This document shows positions 30,671 through 63,458 of a DNA stretch of 64,000 nt, in pieces. The DNA comes from Novibacillus thermophilus (lineage in GTDB: Bacteria > Bacillota > Bacilli > Thermoactinomycetales > Novibacillaceae): the NCBI RefSeq assembly GCF_002005165.1, contig NZ_CP019699.1, positions 620,001 to 684,000 on the forward strand, read 5' to 3'. The notes under the pieces were generated by a model. It was not told where the DNA came from. It saw only the letters and a program-made list of their open reading frames with translations, and made no database searches. The position numbers and the translations under genes were made by a program. How positions within the stretch are numbered: the stretch's first letter is position 1; the number at the start of each line of letters is the position of its first letter.

Positions 30671-30712
30671 TGAGCCATCATTTAGTACGTGAAAAAGGAG
30701 GAGAATGGTATC

Positions 30713-31909
30713 ATGCATTTTGGATTAAGTGAAGAGCAAAAAGCCGTTCGCAACATGGTGCGCGATTTTACAGAGAAAGAAATTTTGCCTTATATTCAGG
30801 AATGGGACGCGAAAGGCCACTTTGAAATGTCGATTATCGAAAAGTTGGCTGATCTAGGTCTTATGGGAGTTTGCATCCCGGAACAGTACGGCGGAGCCGG
30901 AATGGATTACAACACGTTGGCCATCGTGTGTGAGGAATTGGAGTACGGCGACACAGCGTTCCGCACCGCGGTATCCGTTCACACGGGGTTAAACAGCATG
31001 ACCCTCCTGCAGTGGGGAAACGAGGAGCAGAAAGCGCGTTATCTCGTTCCCCAGGCCAAAGGAGAGAAAATCGGGGCCTTCGGGTTGACGGAACCGGATG
31101 CAGGGTCTGACGTGGCCGGCATGAAGTCGACGGCTGTCCGCGACGGGGACGAGTACGTGCTGAACGGCACGAAAACGTGGATTTCCCTCGCCGACCACGC
31201 CGATCATTTTCTCATCTTTGCATACACCGATACGGAGAAGAAACATCACGGCATCTCCGCGTTTATCGTCGAGCGGACGTTCCCCGGTGTGACGACCCGG
31301 CCGATCAAGGGGAAATTAGGAATTCGCGCGGGGAATACAGGAGAAGTCATGATGGAAGATGTCCGGGTGCCGAAGGAAAACTTGCTCGGAGAAGAAGGAG
31401 AAGGATTCAAAATCGCCATGAGCGCACTGGACAACGGGCGGTTTACCGTGGCGGCAGGGGCGGCGGGATTGACGCGGGCGTGTCTCGACGCTTCGGTCAA
31501 ATACGCCAACGAACGCAAAACGTTTGGCAAAGAGATCGGCCGCTATCAGCTGGTTCAGCAGATGATTGCGAATATGGTGGCCGGATATGAAACGTCCCAG
31601 CTCCTCGTCTACCGGGCCGGATGGCTGAAAAACAGAGGGAAACGGAACACGCGGGAGACGTCCCTGGCGAAGTGGTACGCATGTGACGTCGCTTTTCGTT
31701 CGGCGTGTGACGCTGTGCAAGTCCACGGCGCTTACGGATACTCAAGCGAATACCCAGTGGAGCGGTTTATGCGCAATGCGAAAGCGCCGGTCATTTACGA
31801 AGGAACGCGCGAAGTGCACACTATCATGCAAGGAGAGTACGCCCTCGGTTACCGCCGGGACAAACCGCTCCGACAGATGCTCCCCTCCTGGCCGTTTGAT
31901 CGTTCATGA
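30713..31909 (+). CDS. Acyl-CoA dehydrogenase
   Basis: This 398-residue FAD enzyme of the acyl-CoA dehydrogenase family shows FGLTEPDAGSD and LNGTKTWIS near the flavin site, GRFTVAAGAAGLTRACLDASVKYANERKTFG in the C-terminal helical domain, and the catalytic glutamate in VIYEGTREVHTIMQG. It oxidises an acyl-CoA and would pass electrons to EtfAB encoded at 14.2-16.1 kb. AAGGAGGAG precedes the ATG at 30713. The closing LGYRRDKPLR is unusual in detail. Glutaryl-, isovaleryl- or short-chain specificity cannot be decided by eye. Confidence 0.9.
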   Translation: MHFGLSEEQKAVRNMVRDFTEKEILPYIQEWDAKGHFEMSIIEKLADLGLMGVCIPEQYGGAGMDYNTLAIVCEELEYGDTAFRTAVSVHTGLNSMTLLQWGNEEQKARYLVPQAKGEKIGAFGLTEPDAGSDVAGMKSTAVRDGDEYVLNGTKTWISLADHADHFLIFAYTDTEKKHHGISAFIVERTFPGVTTRPIKGKLGIRAGNTGEVMMEDVRVPKENLLGEEGEGFKIAMSALDNGRFTVAAGAAGLTRACLDASVKYANERKTFGKEIGRYQLVQQMIANMVAGYETSQLLVYRAGWLKNRGKRNTRETSLAKWYACDVAFRSACDAVQVHGAYGYSSEYPVERFMRNAKAPVIYEGTREVHTIMQGEYALGYRRDKPLRQMLPSWPFDRS

Positions 31910-45758: not shown

Positions 45759-45834
45759 GGGGCTGTAGCTCAGTTGGGAGAGCGCTTCGTTCGCAACGAA
45801 GAGGTCGGCGGTTCGAGCCCGCTCAGCTCCACCA
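45759..45834 (+). tRNA. tRNA-Ala (anticodon CGC)
   Basis: This 76-base cloverleaf starts with acceptor GGGGCTG, paired with CAGCTCC, including the G3-U70 pair that marks alanine tRNAs. It has a D-arm GCTC/GAGC, anticodon stem CTTCG/CGAAG around loop TTCGCAA (CGC at 45792-45794) and a T-arm with TTCGAGC. The discriminator A and CCA are encoded. It reads GCG codons. It stands alone with its own promoter. Confidence 0.95.
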
Positions 45835-46268: not shown

Positions 46269-48146
46269 GTACGCCCAGCATGGGCGTCATCTATAGGGTG
46301 AAAGTCCCGAACGGGGGCTGGCGAGCGCCTACCGTAGTCAAAGGCAAGGGTGTCCGTCGCGAGGCGGAATCTGAAGGAAGCCGGAGACAAACGCACGGGT
46401 CAAGGTACACGAACTGGATTTGAGGCAGGATTAGTTGGATGAGTTGCCAGAACACAACGAAATCCAAAGCCGCCAAGGGCTCATCCTGTAAACTCCAGTG
46501 ATCGCGGGCGGAAAGATGACGCTCTTATCTGGGGAGGCCTGCGGAACACGCGAAGTAACATCGTAACCGCAGTCGAGAGGCTGCGCTGAATCCGCAGGAG
46601 TCAGCAGAGGCCATAGTACGCAAGTACGGGGCGCCGGAAAGCGGAAGGGCCGAACCGAAAGGAGAGAGGAAACCGATGCGTTCGAGAGAAGAGCGCAGAC
46701 AGCAGAATATCCCGCAAGGGAGCTGCCAACAGAGAGCAGCGGTGAAGCCGCGAGGGTATGTTGGAGCGCCGAGCTCTTCTCCGGCACAAGTCGCCCCTTC
46801 CTCTCGCGAAGACCATAACGACTTGCTGGACAGGATGCTTGAGAGAGAAAATCTCTTGCTCGCATAACAAGCGAGTGGTCCGAAACGGAGGAGCGCCCGG
46901 AGTGGACGGAGTAACGGTAGCTGAACTGCAGGCTTACCTGAACACACACTGGGCACAGGTGAAAGCAGAGCTCCTAGCGGGAACCTACAAACCCGCGCCA
47001 GTCAAACGGGTGGAAATCCCCAAACCTGGAGGCGGCGTGAGGCTTCTAGGGATCCCGACCGCGATGGACCGGCTCCTCCAGCAAGCCCTGCTGCAAGTGA
47101 TGCATCCGATCTTCGATGCTCACTTCTCATGGGACAGCTACGGCTTCCGACCAGGGAAGCGAGCCCATGATGCGGTCCTTCAAGCCCAGCGCTATATCCA
47201 GAGTGGATACAGATGGGTTGTGGACTTGGACTTAGAGAAGTGCTTTGACCGAGTAAACCACGACATGCTCATGGCGAGGGTAGCAAGAAGGGAGAAGGAC
47301 AAGCGAGACCTGAAACTCATCCGGGTGTACCTCAACGCCGGAGTCATGGTCAACGGAGTATGCCAACGGACAGAGGAAGGGACGCCGCAAGGCGGACCGC
47401 TGAGTCCGCTTCTGGCCAACATCTTGTTGGACGACCTGGACAAAGAACGAAAGAAACGCGGGTTGCAATTCGCACGTTATGCGGACGATTGTAACATCTT
47501 TGTCGCTAGCAAGCGCGCAGGGGAACGCGTCATGGAATCGGTGATTCGCTTTGTAGAGGGAAAGCTGAAACTGAAAGTGAACCGAGACAAAAGTGCGGTA
47601 GACCGCCCCTGGAACCGGAAATTCCTAGGGTTCAGTTTTCTGCCGGACAAACAAGCAACGATTCGGTTAGCCCCGAAGACCATCTCCCGATTCAAAGATA
47701 GAATACGTGAGATGACGAGTCGTTCACGGGCGATCTCCATGGAAGAGCGAATTAAACGGCTCAACCGCTACATCATCGGTTGGGTCAGGTACTTTCGACT
47801 GGCATCGATGAAGACGCACTGTGAAAGATTCGACCAATGGATTCGGCGCAGACTGAGGATGTGCCTATGGAAACAATGGAAACGGGTCAGAACCCGTCTT
47901 CGTGAACTTAGGGCCCTTGGCGTACCAGAATGGGCCTGCTTCATGATGGCCAATTCCCGCCGAGGACCATGGGAAATGTCCCGGAACACAAACAATGCCC
48001 TTCCGACTTCCTACTGGGAAGCGAAAGGGCTGAAGAGTATGCTTTCTCGTTATATGGAACTTCGTCAACCTTTTGGAACCGCCTAGTGCGGACCCGCATG
48101 CTAGGTGGTGTGAGAGGACGGAGGCTAGCCGCCCCTCCTACTCGAT
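46269..48146 (+). mobile_element. Group IIC intron
   Basis: The 5' end GTACGCCCAGCATGGGCG opens domain I; a long structured stretch precedes the maturase frame. Domain V lies near 48077-48110: an ACCGCC start with the CGC triad typical of group IIC, and CCTAG/CTAGG plus TGCGG/CCGCA stems. Domain VI follows, ending in CCTACTCGAT near 48146. The encoded protein resembles the thermostable Geobacillus group IIC reverse transcriptase and lacks an endonuclease domain. Insertion just past a terminator hairpin fits the class. Exact ends are estimated from pattern. Confidence 0.88.
46676..48086 (+). pseudogene. Group IIC intron reverse transcriptase/maturase, frameshifted
   Basis: The frame from 46676 (MRSREERRQQ...) runs to ENLLLA and stops at 46867; the following RT sequence (KRVVRNGGAPGVDGVTVAEL) continues in another frame to 48086. 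Removing one A from GCATAAC would join them into about 469 residues. Domains are RT0-RT7 with the YADD active site (47478-47489), the EGTPQGGPLSPLLANILLDDLD block, then the maturase X domain (IGWVRYFRLASMKTHCERFDQWIRRRLR), with no HNH. If the extra A is real the intron cannot help its own splicing or move; if it is an error the element is intact. Confidence 0.85.
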
Positions 48147-48415
48147 TTATTTACATGATGTCCTTAGTTTTTTATAGAGGGTTAAGCTAAGAACCTCTCA
48201 CGTTTGTAAACAGAATAAATATAAGTATAATGATTCTCTTTCTAGCACCAGTATATAGAGGGAGGGGGGAGGATGTCAAGGAGGGGAAGGATACAAAACT
48301 TAGTCCCCTTTATTATAGTACGCTTAATATTATAATTATATGAAATAAATTGATAAACTTTTCAATTTTAATATAAAATAAAGTTAATATATTAAAAAAA
48401 CAAGGAGGCATTATA
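48147..48415. other. AT-rich promoter region before the secreted asparaginase-like gene
   Basis: This region of about 270 bases is very AT-rich after 48290. No gene is seen. Several TATAAT-like strings occur, so I do not pick one promoter. Confidence 0.4.
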
Positions 48416-58717: not shown

Positions 58718-59506
58718 TTATTGATGGCGTGAAACTCCGTCATCCCACGTCGGCTCTTTCTTCTCTAAAAAAGCCGATATGCCTTTTATTGTCTCTCGAT
58801 GCTTACTGTTGCGGACAATCACCTCCGTGGCATAGTGGAGGGCAGACCAATCGTCCATTTGGAGTTGCCGGTAAAACAAGCGCTTTCCAAGCTCGATCAC
58901 TTGTAAGCTGTGTTTTGCTACTTCGTTGGCCAGTTTTTCTGTTTCCTTATCAAGCTGGTCATCCGGGACCACCCGATTAACCAGCTCCATCGCTTCCGCT
59001 TCTCGAGCTGTATACAGTTTTCCCGTAAACAACATTTCTGCCGCCTTTTTTCTGCTAATGTTACGGCTTAAAAAGACGGCCGGAGTGCTACAAAAGAGTC
59101 CCCAGTTAATACCCGTTGCACCGAATTGAGCACGTTCTGAAGCTACAGCCAGATCGGAAACGGCGACCAATTCAAGTCCAGCTGCAACCGCGACACCTTG
59201 AACCTTAGCAATCACAACTTGTGGCAGATCTCGGATCAACTGTTTAACCCGGAAACTTTGTTCAAACAACGCGTGTACGGTTTCTGTATCTGACTCTTGT
59301 ATTTCTTGAAAGTGGTGACCAAGGCAAAATATGTTTGGTGCCCCTTGGAGCACCACGACAGCCACTTCACGAGTATTGGCAATAGTTTTGAGCTGTTTCT
59401 CCATATCCTTCATTGCTTTCAGCGTAAGAGTTAAATTTTCATTAACGTTGTTTAGAGTCACCCATCCTACAGGACCACGACGTTCATAAAGAATCACTTG
59501 ACTCAA
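58718..59506 (-). CDS. Crotonase-fold enoyl-CoA hydratase/isomerase-like protein (ECHDC3-like)
   Basis: This 262-residue crotonase-superfamily protein keeps the first catalytic glutamate (E112 in AAGLELVAV) but has glycine at position 132, where fadB in this window has the second glutamate. The segment GINWGLFCSTPAVFLSRNISRKKAAEMLFTGK closely resembles the ECHDC3-like branch, whose reaction is not settled. Simple hydratase activity is therefore doubtful; a thioesterase, isomerase or other acyl-CoA role is possible. It is the last gene of the riboswitch-controlled operon, 22 bases after the ligase gene. Confidence 0.85.
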   Translation of the reverse strand: MSQVILYERRGPVGWVTLNNVNENLTLTLKAMKDMEKQLKTIANTREVAVVVLQGAPNIFCLGHHFQEIQESDTETVHALFEQSFRVKQLIRDLPQVVIAKVQGVAVAAGLELVAVSDLAVASERAQFGATGINWGLFCSTPAVFLSRNISRKKAAEMLFTGKLYTAREAEAMELVNRVVPDDQLDKETEKLANEVAKHSLQVIELGKRLFYRQLQMDDWSALHYATEVIVRNSKHRETIKGISAFLEKKEPTWDDGVSRHQ

Positions 59507-59528
59507 AGCACGTCCTCCTTACAACCCT

Positions 59529-61160
59529 TTAGTTGGTGTTTAACTGCTTCTCTCGCTCTTTTTCACGAAGCAAATGTTTTTGTACTTTACCTGTGTTAGT
59601 TTTTGGCAACTCACAGAATTCAATCTCTTTGGGACACTTAAAGTGGGCGAGTCGTTTGCGGCAAAATGTTTGCAGTTCCTCCACACTCACGCATTCCCCG
59701 GGTTGAACTGTAATGAACGCTTTCGGGACCTCTCCCCATTTGCGGTCGGGGATGCCGATCACGGCTACCTCTAATACTGAAGGGTGTTCCAAAAGGACCC
59801 GCTCCACTTCTACTGAACTGATATTCTCACCTCCTGAGATAATGATGTCCTTTTGCCGATCCTTCAGCTCTATGTAACCGTCCGCGTGCCACACCGCTAA
59901 ATCGCCTGTATGAAACCACCCGCCGTGAAAAGCTTGAGCAGTAGCTTCCTCATCTTTGTAGTAGCCAAGCATGACCCCGTTCCCGCGCATGAGGACTTCA
60001 CCCATCGTGAGGCCGTCTTTAGGAACCTGGCGCATCTTGTCGTCGACAACAGTCAGTTCGCCTAGTCCGATATACGGAATACCTTGCCGTGCTTTTAATT
60101 CCGCCCGTTGATTGTCTGGAAGTGCATCCCACTCTTTTCGCCATTCATTGATCGTGAACGGGCCGTACACTTCCGTCAGGCCGTACACATGGGTGACCTT
60201 TGCTCCAAAAGACTCTAATTTGCGCAGCAAAGCTGGGCTCGGAGGGGCAGCAGCTGTAATAATGTGGACGGTGCCAGGCAATCCAGTTCTCTCACTCTCT
60301 AGATATTGGGAAATCATCGTCAGCACTGGGGGTGCCGCACAGAAGTGCGTGATGCCTTCTGATTCAATCAACTGAACGATTCGGGATGCCTCTACTTTGC
60401 GCAAAAGGACATGTGTGGCGCCAACTGCCGTCGCGGCCCAGGGGAAACACCAACCTGCGGCGTGAAACATTGGGAGTGTCCACAGGTACACGCTGTCAGG
60501 CGAAAGATTCATTTCTACGATTTCACTAAAGGCATTTATGAATGCTCCTCGATGGTGCAGCATGACCCCTTTTGGACGTCCAGTAGTTCCACTGGTGTAA
60601 TGAATAGAAATCAAATCCCACTCATCTTGAACACTTACCGACATCGGGTCAAAGGGCACCGAGTGGAGCCAGCTTTCGTACGGAAGCACGTCCACGGGCT
60701 GTTCAATGTGGCGTGTAGTCGGGAAATGTTTATCCGTGCCATCGACGATGAGGACGCGGACACTTGGGACTTCTTCAAGACAAGGAACCAGTCGTTCAGC
60801 GTACGTGTCGTCCACAAAAAGGACAACTGCTTCAGAGTGATTGAGGATGTAGGACATTTCCTTTGATTTCAAACGAACGTTGATGGGAACGAGTACAGCT
60901 CCCATCAGAGGAACCGCCAGGTGAAGCTCGAGGGCAAGTTTGGTATTCGGAACGACTGCCGCAACACGGTCACCCCGCTGTACGCCGAGACGGTAGAGAC
61001 CTCGCGCCAGACGGTGGACTCTTTCGTACAATGTCCGGTAAGTGTAGCGAGTGTTTCCTTCGACAACCGCTACGCGATCTGGAAAAGCCACTACCGTCCT
61101 TTCTAAAAACGACGCGGGGGTAAGGGGCGCTTGAAACGGTTGATGATACAAACTTGACAT
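59529..61160 (-). CDS. Acyl-CoA ligase (AMP-binding, DmdB/medium-chain type)
   Basis: This 543-residue ANL enzyme has the P-loop HYTSGTTGRPKGVML, PMFHAAGWCFPWAATAVGATHV, YGLTEVYGP, WFHTGDLAVWHADGYIELKDRQKDIIISGGENIS, and the catalytic lysine in PKTNTGKVQKH. The closest group by pattern is the one holding medium/short-chain acid ligases and DmdB, the 3-methylthiopropionate--CoA ligase; the two cannot be separated by eye. AAAGGTGG supports the ATG at 61160. It lies between the transporter and the crotonase-like gene, under the S-box riboswitch. Confidence 0.88.
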   Translation of the reverse strand: MSSLYHQPFQAPLTPASFLERTVVAFPDRVAVVEGNTRYTYRTLYERVHRLARGLYRLGVQRGDRVAAVVPNTKLALELHLAVPLMGAVLVPINVRLKSKEMSYILNHSEAVVLFVDDTYAERLVPCLEEVPSVRVLIVDGTDKHFPTTRHIEQPVDVLPYESWLHSVPFDPMSVSVQDEWDLISIHYTSGTTGRPKGVMLHHRGAFINAFSEIVEMNLSPDSVYLWTLPMFHAAGWCFPWAATAVGATHVLLRKVEASRIVQLIESEGITHFCAAPPVLTMISQYLESERTGLPGTVHIITAAAPPSPALLRKLESFGAKVTHVYGLTEVYGPFTINEWRKEWDALPDNQRAELKARQGIPYIGLGELTVVDDKMRQVPKDGLTMGEVLMRGNGVMLGYYKDEEATAQAFHGGWFHTGDLAVWHADGYIELKDRQKDIIISGGENISSVEVERVLLEHPSVLEVAVIGIPDRKWGEVPKAFITVQPGECVSVEELQTFCRKRLAHFKCPKEIEFCELPKTNTGKVQKHLLREKEREKQLNTN

Positions 61161-61192
61161 AATGTTAACCACCTTTCTCCCAGGAAATAAAC

Positions 61193-62473
61193 CTAAAGTT
61201 CCTTCAGTTTGAGGGCACCTATAAGTCCGAGAAGGGCCAAGGAGATCAAATAAGTACTGACAGCAAACGCAGAATCAAAGTTGTCGACTAAAAAGGTGCT
61301 GATCATCGGTGCGATGCCACCCCCGAGGACCGCTCCGATTGCATAAGCAACCGATGAACCGCTGTACCGCAGGCGGGCTGGAAACGAACTTGCGACAAAT
61401 GATGCGAGGGGGCCGTACATGGCACCAAACGTGAAAAACGCGAACGCTACCGCAGTCACAATGAGGAAAGGCTGTTTGCTGTTGACCAGGACAAAATATG
61501 GAAATGCCCATACCACCAAAGAGAGGACACCGACGACATACACGTTCTTGGCTCCGACGATGTCTGAAAAGTGTCCGAAAAGGACTACGGCAAGTGCCGC
61601 CGCAATGCCGCCGAGCACAGTGGCATTGGTTAGCAGATTCTGATCGAGGTTTAAATACGTCGATCCATACCCGATAAAAAACGTACTGAACGTGTAAAAC
61701 GCAGCGAACATCACAATGTTCACTAAGATGGCCCAGAGGATCGTTTTAGGGTAGGTGCGAAGCGATTCGAGCACAGGAGCTTGGGACACATTTTCGTCTT
61801 TTAGAACTTTTTGAAACTCTGGTGATTCCAGAACGCGTAAACGGGCGTACAGTCCGACGATGACTAGGCCCAAGCTGAAAAGGAACGGAATGCGCCATGC
61901 CCACGAAAAAAAGGCGTCACCGGATACCGTGAGTAAGAGTGAAACAACGGTTGAAGAGAGTACTAAGCCGAAGGGTGAACCCAGCTGTGGGAGGCTTGCA
62001 AAAAATCCGCGTCGATCACGCCCTGCCCACTCCATAGAGAGCAAGACAGCACCTCCCCACTCTCCGCCTGCTGAGAGACCCTGTAAAAAGCGGAGAATCG
62101 ACAACAAGAGCGGAGCCCATATGCCAATTGTTTCATAAGTCGGTAAAAGCCCCATAGTCGTTGTCGCGATTCCCATCATCAGTAATGTGAAAATGAGTGT
62201 CGTCTTTCTTCCAAAGCGATCGCCAAAGTGACTAAAGATAAAACTGCCAACAGGTCGTGCCACAAACCCGATGGCAAAGATTAAGAACGTCTGCATCAAC
62301 CCTGCGTAAGGGTCAGAATCCGGGAAAAACAAAGTAGGAAATACGAGGGCTCCCACTGTTCCGTAAATAAAGAAGTCGTACCATTCGATGGTTGTTCCGA
62401 TCACGCTCGAGATGGCGGCCCGACGTCGGTGAAGGGATGTTTCGGAAACTTCAACTGATACATCATAACTCAT
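61193..62473 (-). CDS. MFS transporter, metabolite:H+ symporter family
   Basis: This 426-residue 12-helix transporter is of the MHS branch (ShiA/ProP/KgtP-like): SVIGTTIEWYDFFIYGTVGALVFP, FVARPVGSFIFSHFGDRFGRKTTL and LQGLSAGGEWGGAVLLSMEW are diagnostic. Such carriers import small organic acids or betaines with protons. GGAGAGGAGAG precedes the ATG. It is the first gene after the SAM-I riboswitch, so its expression should rise when SAM is low. This points to an organic substrate useful for sulfur or methyl supply. Confidence 0.9.
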   Translation of the reverse strand: MSYDVSVEVSETSLHRRRAAISSVIGTTIEWYDFFIYGTVGALVFPTLFFPDSDPYAGLMQTFLIFAIGFVARPVGSFIFSHFGDRFGRKTTLIFTLLMMGIATTTMGLLPTYETIGIWAPLLLSILRFLQGLSAGGEWGGAVLLSMEWAGRDRRGFFASLPQLGSPFGLVLSSTVVSLLLTVSGDAFFSWAWRIPFLFSLGLVIVGLYARLRVLESPEFQKVLKDENVSQAPVLESLRTYPKTILWAILVNIVMFAAFYTFSTFFIGYGSTYLNLDQNLLTNATVLGGIAAALAVVLFGHFSDIVGAKNVYVVGVLSLVVWAFPYFVLVNSKQPFLIVTAVAFAFFTFGAMYGPLASFVASSFPARLRYSGSSVAYAIGAVLGGGIAPMISTFLVDNFDSAFAVSTYLISLALLGLIGALKLKEL

Positions 62474-62519
62474 TCACACTCTCTCCTCTCCTGTCACTAT
62501 TTCTAGGCTCGACACATAC

Positions 62520-62550
62520 AAAAACCCCCTCTTCGATAAGAAGAGGGGTT
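62520..62550 (-). terminator. Riboswitch expression-platform terminator
   Basis: On the minus strand CCCCTCTTC pairs with GAAGAGGGG around TTATC, followed by GTTTTTG. Its left arm includes CTTCTTATC, a copy of the 5' P1 strand, so it can alternatively pair with the 3' P1 strand as antiterminator. Confidence 0.9.
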
Positions 62551-62569
62551 CGCTCTGTAGCGAAACGCT

Positions 62570-62693
62570 CTTCTTATCTCTCGGAACGAGTTAAACTCAT
62601 CCCGCAGGAGTTGGCACCTTTTTTGCACTGCGCGAGTGCAAAGAGGTTGCCGGGCTTCATTGGGCCAGTCCCTCCGCCTCTCTTGATAAGAAG
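62570..62693 (-). promoter_or_regulatory. SAM-I (S-box) riboswitch aptamer
   Basis: On the minus strand the aptamer reads CTTCTTATCAAGAGAGGCGG, GGGACTGGCCC, AATGAAGCCCGGCAACC, a TTTGCACT/AGTGCAAA P3 hairpin, AAGGTGCCAACTCCTGC, a P4 GAGTTTAACTC-type element and GAGAGATAAGAAG closing P1. This is the S-box consensus almost throughout. With SAM bound, P1 closes and the terminator at 62520-62550 forms; without SAM, the 3' P1 strand pairs with the terminator arm and the operon is read. It controls the transporter, ligase and crotonase-like genes. Confidence 0.95.
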
Positions 62694-62999
62694 CATTCAC
62701 TATGAATATGTAATTGAAAAAACTTGTAATTATCCTACAACTCTATTCTCACATTGTCAAGGGGAATACGCCGTTCAGTTTAGAAAATTTTTTCTGAACT
62801 ACTTTGTCCGCACCTTACAAAATTGTAAGTTTTGGTAGTTAAAATGTAAGACCAATCAATGTCAATCAGTTTCAAATTTTTCTACGATAAAAGAAGAGCC
62901 GAAAGATCGTGATACTTAAATGGCTTTTGGGAAAAAAGCGTGTGTGGTACGGGTACTAGAAATGCGTGAACGTGTTTAGGGGGAAGGGGATGTGAGCAC
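62694..62999. other. Divergent intergenic region between riboswitch and DoxX-like gene
   Basis: AT-rich with no gene. It contains the riboswitch promoter at 62732-62760 on the minus strand. I see no confident promoter for the plus-strand gene. Confidence 0.5.
62732..62760 (-). promoter_or_regulatory. Promoter of the S-box operon
   Basis: Read on the minus strand: perfect TTGACA (62755-62760), 17 bases, then TAGGAT (62732-62737, 4 of 6). The transcript would start about 30 bases before the aptamer. Confidence 0.6.
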
Positions 63000-63458
63000 A
63001 TGGATACGGGTCGGTTTATTTGTGTCCTTCAACACTCAATTCCTGCGACGTTTCGTCTCTTTTTGGCAGTGAACTTTCTGATTTACGGAGCTGCTAAACT
63101 GACGTTCGGACAATTTGGCGTACCAACAGAAGAAATTGCCGCCATGCGAGGAGAAGGTTTTACGTTAGCTTGGACATTTTTTGGATATTCGCGCTTATAT
63201 GAAATGTTTATCGGGTTAGGGGAAGTCATAGCCGCTGTCTTAATCGCGATTCCGAGGACGGCAACGTTGGGTGCCATCTGTTATTTTCCAATTGCCGTTA
63301 ATATTATGATGGTCAATTATGCTTTTGATATTGGTGTTCAAGACCTCAGTACTGTTTTGATGGTTATGTGTCTCATCTTACTGTGGCTGGATCGCAAGAA
63401 ACTTCTTTTGATTTTTGTAAAATCACACGATGTGGCAGAAAGAGTGAAAAAGTTATGA
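63000..63458 (+). CDS. DoxX-like membrane protein
   Basis: This 152-residue protein has four hydrophobic helices (ATFRLFLAVNFLIYGAAKLTFGQFG, YEMFIGLGEVIAAVLIAI, ATLGAICYFPIAVNIMMVNY, STVLMVMCLILLWLD), as in DoxX/DUF417-like proteins. The GAAKL and GLGEVIAAVLI segments fit that group. The function is unknown; some relatives take part in redox or respiratory complexes. AAGGGGA is upstream of the ATG. The stop overlaps the next small gene in ATGA. Confidence 0.7.
   Translation: MDTGRFICVLQHSIPATFRLFLAVNFLIYGAAKLTFGQFGVPTEEIAAMRGEGFTLAWTFFGYSRLYEMFIGLGEVIAAVLIAIPRTATLGAICYFPIAVNIMMVNYAFDIGVQDLSTVLMVMCLILLWLDRKKLLLIFVKSHDVAERVKKL

Follow-up and report, generated by a model that had tools for sequence, protein, structure and literature searches.

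A predicted SAM-I riboswitch-controlled operon of Novibacillus thermophilus for a transporter, an acyl-CoA ligase and an ECHDC3-like crotonase, and its probable place in organosulfur scavenging

A three-gene operon of Novibacillus thermophilus, which stands behind a SAM-I (S-box) riboswitch in the 64-kb stretch of DNA analysed here (64,000 nucleotides, hereafter the window), is probably an undescribed way of scavenging sulfur for methionine. We read its genes as an S-box-controlled, CoA-dependent route for scavenging organosulfur acids, with a probability of roughly 0.58. An earlier note on this DNA had suggested that a sulfur-bearing organic acid is imported and activated with CoA when SAM is scarce, and this is supported by the recurrence of such genes beside S-boxes in other Bacilli and by the composition of the S-box regulon in the same genome. 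Membership in a riboswitch regulon reliably points to what a gene does, and in three Bacilli families such membership connects methionine supply with an ECHDC3-like crotonase, a CoA-activating enzyme and a transporter.

The leader lies on the minus strand, where a covariance search with the Rfam SAM model, as the earlier note had proposed, finds a full-length aptamer at 62571-62692 (RF00162, model positions 1-108 of 108; E 6e-20) whose 89.3 bits exceed the gathering score of 44.4. An antiterminator hairpin of 11 pairs with an inner 6-pair hairpin (62535-62578, minus strand; -23.5 kcal/mol, z -6.0) and an intrinsic terminator hairpin of 9 pairs followed by a T run (62526-62548, minus strand; -18.1 kcal/mol, z -4.0) are mutually exclusive. 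In the predicted folding, the antiterminator arises when the 3' strand of P1 pairs with the terminator's 5' half, and the whole leader folds much more strongly than its shuffles (z -5.3). The full-length match and the exclusive hairpins thus bear out the arrangement of aptamer, antiterminator and terminator that had been claimed for this leader. A promoter-like site upstream (TTGACA-17-TAGGAT, 62732-62760, minus strand; 10/12 in a consensus scan) begins at 62760, where the range noted earlier ends; such sites are no commoner here than in shuffled sequences, and a consensus match alone is not proof of function. In the S-box mode of control, bound SAM keeps P1 closed and transcription stops, and when SAM is scarce the operon is read. 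Judged by its sequence and folding, the riboswitch belongs to the known SAM-I kind, is unremarkable within it and has a predicted response to SAM. It shares aptamer, antiterminator and terminator with the textbook S-box system (RF00162) of Bacilli and differs from it in its cargo: as the earlier note had pointed out, the three genes downstream are not the usual methionine genes.

These genes follow each other on the minus strand with intergenic gaps of only 20 and 22 bases, and the family matches agree with the identities first given to their products. The first encodes an MHS-family metabolite/H+ symporter of 426 aa (61193-62473), for which TIGR00883 is the best NCBIfam model with 388.9 bits (E 3e-116; cutoff 443.5) and for which the PDB holds only distant MFS matches. 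The second encodes an AMP-forming acyl-CoA ligase of 547 aa (59529-61172; PF00501 and PF13193), which lies above the NCBIfam cutoff of the PRK08162 subfamily (692 vs 677 bits) and far below that of the DmdB equivalog NF005426 (323.9 vs 822 bits). Its best PDB match is the long-chain fatty acid-CoA ligase 1ult (314 bits), and 6ihk, which we take to be a DmdB, scores 240 bits. The third gene (58718-59506) encodes the crotonase of 262 aa, assigned by NCBIfam, PDB match and residue mapping. A DmdC-like acyl-CoA dehydrogenase is absent from the operon and from the other S-box operons that were read.

The crotonase has its best NCBIfam match in PRK08139 (NF006008), with 270.5 bits below the cutoff of 313, and its best PDB match in human ECHDC3 (2vx2), with 3myb also close. 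The ECHDC3 / PRK08139 crotonases are its closest sequence family, and the literature searched gave no function for them, the reaction of human ECHDC3 included. In DmdD, Glu121 is essential, while Glu141 is required for thioester hydrolysis and fast hydration, an E141A exchange lowering methanethiol release about 88,000-fold and abolishing hydrolysis (PMC3660561). The window crotonase has Glu112 at the position of the former and Gly132 at that of the latter, so that the two catalytic glutamates are not both present. The absence of the second glutamate, on which the earlier note had dwelt, is therefore confirmed as such but is not special to this protein, because all 33 compared family members have glycine there. 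Glutamate at the first position is found only in a subclade of four genomes (the window's, G064, G083 and H. schlegelii) and replaces the glutamine of all others, so that the Gln/Gly pattern of 2vx2 and 3myb has become Glu/Gly. As far as residue comparison goes, the unusual point of the protein is the retained first glutamate and not the missing second.

Related genes recur near S-boxes in other families of Bacilli. Genome G083, a Hydrogenibacillus congeneric with H. schlegelii, encodes the closest relative of the window's MHS protein found among 399 genomes of the class, with identities to the window proteins of 59% for the symporter, 56% for the ligase and 65% for the crotonase. Its locus L137 starts with an S-box (75.5 bits), followed on one strand and with close spacing by genes for a MetF-like protein, MetE (1015 bits vs 541), a frame-broken MetY-like protein, the MHS symporter, the ligase and MetY; the S-box lies about 5.6 kb upstream of the MHS gene, and the crotonase gene is found outside this operon, elsewhere in the genome. 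In G170 an S-box of 88.6 bits (L276) is located immediately upstream of the crotonase gene on the same strand. In G180 (L272:747-7619) the crotonase gene is divergent from an S-box operon and about 130 bases from its S-box (83.8 bits). This operon encodes subunits A and B of a CoA-transferase (3-oxoacid-type) and a thioredoxin-like protein, then an ABC substrate-binding protein, ATPase and permease, and MetY, with the CoA-transferase in place of the window's ligase and the ABC transporter in place of its MHS symporter. The set of CoA-transferase, thioredoxin-like protein, ABC transporter and MetY is an unusual S-box unit by itself. The crotonases of the window, G170 and G180 belong to the same supported clade (n=14; 95/91), separate from the 'GHDL'-motif group that contains human ECHDC3, and those of G170 and G180 pass the NF006008 cutoff with 313.4 and 324.8 bits.

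The loci in G083, G170 and G180 therefore indicate that import, CoA activation and this crotonase, and MetY as well, turn up repeatedly near S-boxes while individual parts are exchanged. The survey of neighbourhoods that had been suggested for this gene set thus finds, in further families of Bacilli, genes of the same kinds in the company of S-boxes and of genes for methionine. At an S-box density of about 0.0022 per gene, the chance of two S-box neighbours is about 0.0014 among the 13 other clade members and about 0.008 among all 30 relatives, the latter being the fairer figure because the clade was examined after the S-boxes had been seen. The estimate lends moderate statistical support to the proximity of crotonase and S-box, and the fitting roles of the neighbouring genes strengthen it.

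Most relatives of each of the three genes stand alone with no S-box nearby, and the ligase-crotonase pair occurs without an S-box in five genomes (G001, G002, G003, G016, G064). Given these solitary relatives and S-box-free pairs, ordinary acids may be the substrates of the enzymes. A motif search of 80 ligase loci from Desulfobacterota, Proteobacteria, Actinobacteria and others found no S-box near the ligase and hardly any crotonase, so the ligase alone is uninformative. MHS relatives were examined in 29 further loci and have no S-box within 1.5 kb. In H. schlegelii the ligase gene is followed by a peroxidase-related gene, the crotonase gene and a gene of the acrylyl-CoA-reductase family (L026); an IS element and the end of the contig cut this locus off on its 5' side, so that it gives no reading on an S-box, and the window's genome holds no close relative of the reductase. 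Clostridial ligases in two other families of the phylum (L224, L231, L232) adjoin S-box-led genes that resemble DUF39/ferredoxin homocysteine-biosynthesis genes; these loci were rejected as co-regulated cases and left out of the count because the ligase gene is convergent to the S-box-led genes.

The N. thermophilus genome (one contig, 3.63 Mb) contains nine S-boxes, the operon's own included. The genes downstream of each were read by eye and their products then scanned against families. The eight further S-boxes head genes for MetY, MetN, MetQ, an SsuA-family transporter, SfnG and two DmoA-family monooxygenases. The dimethylsulfone monooxygenase SfnG matches its equivalog with 587 bits (cutoff 383) and is flanked by an OsmC-like gene before and a flavin reductase-like gene after it. 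The best PDB matches of the two NtaA/DmoA-family monooxygenases are 6ak1, a DMS monooxygenase, and 3b9n, an alkane monooxygenase. The regulon also includes an SsuE-type FMN reductase, a MetN-type ABC system and, behind an SSS-type symporter, a MetQ-type ABC system. As predicted from these families, the S-box regulon serves methionine supply and the scavenging of organosulfur compounds, and the class of substrate to be expected for the operon is accordingly a sulfur-bearing acid. Two complete tandem S-boxes precede the SsuA-family ABC transporter (L020; C1:880347 and C1:880521), and tandem S-boxes also occur in H. schlegelii, ahead of a MetX-like gene (L208). The OsmC-like gene is the first of the S-box operon with SfnG (L024:508-2820; S-box at C1:2896432). 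In Ca. Pelagibacter osmC likewise stands behind a SAM riboswitch, there of the SAM-V kind (PMC5069961), so that OsmC may play a part when sulfur is short.

In the route that we propose, low SAM would lead to read-through of the SAM-I leader and expression of the operon, the MHS symporter would import a small sulfur-bearing carboxylate, and the ligase would turn it into its CoA thioester. The ECHDC3-like crotonase would then break the C-S bond by way of the acidified alpha-carbon of the thioester, preferably by a beta-elimination, the simplest chemistry for a beta-thio acyl-CoA, that yields an enoyl-CoA (e.g., acryloyl-CoA) and a thiol without the need of a dehydrogenase. The thiol or sulfide so released would be caught by MetY, which is itself under its own S-box, and the enoyl-CoA would pass into central metabolism. 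We infer the sulfur in the acid, the inward direction of transport and the elimination chemistry from this context, and 3-methylthiopropionate is a possible substrate, one of several candidates. Direct elimination is preferred because no dehydrogenase accompanies the genes; as a predicted reaction of the crotonase itself it is held with low confidence. Slightly more doubtful is the fuller proposal that the protein is a CoA-dependent C-S lyase, releasing the thiol from a 4-thia-acyl-CoA such as 3-methylthiopropionyl-CoA, within a SAM-controlled Bacilli module with interchangeable transporter and CoA-activating enzyme. Thioether elimination by a crotonase cannot be taken as given, since DmdD releases no methanethiol from 3-methylthiopropionyl-CoA (PMC3660561).

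Closest to known enzymes would be a pathway like that of DmdB, DmdC and DmdD in DMSP demethylation, in which the ligase forms 3-methylthiopropionyl-CoA, a dehydrogenase encoded elsewhere converts it to methylthioacryloyl-CoA, and hydration by the crotonase frees methanethiol for MetY. DmdB and DmdC enzymes are broad and common to fatty acid metabolism (PMC5395565), an acyl-CoA dehydrogenase-like gene was recognised by eye at 30689-31909 of the window, and the glutamate essential in DmdD is kept. The earlier note had pointed to the kinship with DmdB and DmdD, which holds for the superfamilies of the ligase and the crotonase but not beyond them: the ligase fails the DmdB equivalog, the catalytic pair of DmdD is lost with a glycine at the very position whose exchange cripples that enzyme, and the S-box operons are without a dehydrogenase. 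We consider this pathway unlikely. A sulfonated or sulfinated acid, similar to 3-sulfo- or 3-sulfinopropionate, whose CoA ester would lose sulfite for reduction to sulfide and capture by MetY, is less likely again; the SsuA-family transporter behind another S-box of the genome is of a sulfonate type, yet we know of no sulfonate transport in the MHS family. Desulfination of 3-sulfinopropionyl-CoA after CoA activation does take place in Variovorax (PMC6370202), but the known desulfinase is an acyl-CoA-dehydrogenase homologue and not a crotonase.

The acid may also be free of sulfur and useful during methionine shortage for another reason, for example as a supply of carbon or acyl-CoA, the S-box having been recruited for that purpose. 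The ligase subfamily is broad, most of its relatives lack a link to sulfur genes, and some MHS relatives adjoin ligases and other genes in loci without an S-box (by eye); against this, the fact that such genes turn up again under S-boxes, beside MetY, MetE and MetF, in further Bacilli families leaves such a role as improbable as the sulfonate one. That a chance rearrangement placed an S-box before a metabolically unrelated operon would fit the many relatives without one, but recurrence in three Bacilli families in differing arrangements and the low chance estimate make this very improbable indeed.

The organosulfur route proposed here has partial counterparts in known systems. YoaB of Bacillus subtilis is presumably an MHS-type transporter. 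The yoaDCB genes form an S-box unit whose function is debated (PMC2743287, PMC2885750). The ATP-dependent DMSP lyase DddX cleaves DMSP-CoA to DMS and acryloyl-CoA (PMC8163506) and follows the same logic of ATP-driven CoA activation before C-S cleavage, although DddX is a single protein of the ACD superfamily and the operon encodes an AMP-forming ligase and a crotonase. In Variovorax paradoxus TBEA6, two enoyl-CoA hydratases are essential for the use of the thioether acid 3,3'-thiodipropionate after a postulated CoA activation (PMC6370202). That route likewise joins activation to enoyl-CoA hydratases, but it serves a carbon source, has no riboswitch and involves more enzymes, with the exact cleavage reaction unproven there.

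A literature search that lacked most subscription papers, older surveys of the S-box regulon among them, brought up no report of a SAM riboswitch linked to methylthiopropionate, and none linked to a crotonase or an acyl-CoA ligase was noticed. As far as our searches could tell, the gene set is an undescribed extension of the S-box regulon with variable parts in three Bacilli families; with lower probability, the reaction of the crotonase is new as well. If correct, the proposal would reveal sulfur sources of a new class, together with a route of C-S cleavage in these bacteria, and would give a testable function to crotonases related to human ECHDC3; a true C-S lyase would be the first function for part of this widespread family.

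Divergent from the S-box operon, a 152-aa ORF (63000-63458, plus strand) apparently codes for a membrane protein and matches no family of Pfam or NCBIfam. Elsewhere in the window, a tRNA gene (45759-45831) stands just before the RNA domains of a group II intron (RF02001, RF01998; 46353-46650), which are followed by an intron-encoded reverse transcriptase-like ORF (46758-48086). A PreQ1 riboswitch match of 47.6 bits (threshold 39) lies at 48158-48203 on the minus strand, with the neighbouring ORFs on the opposite strand.
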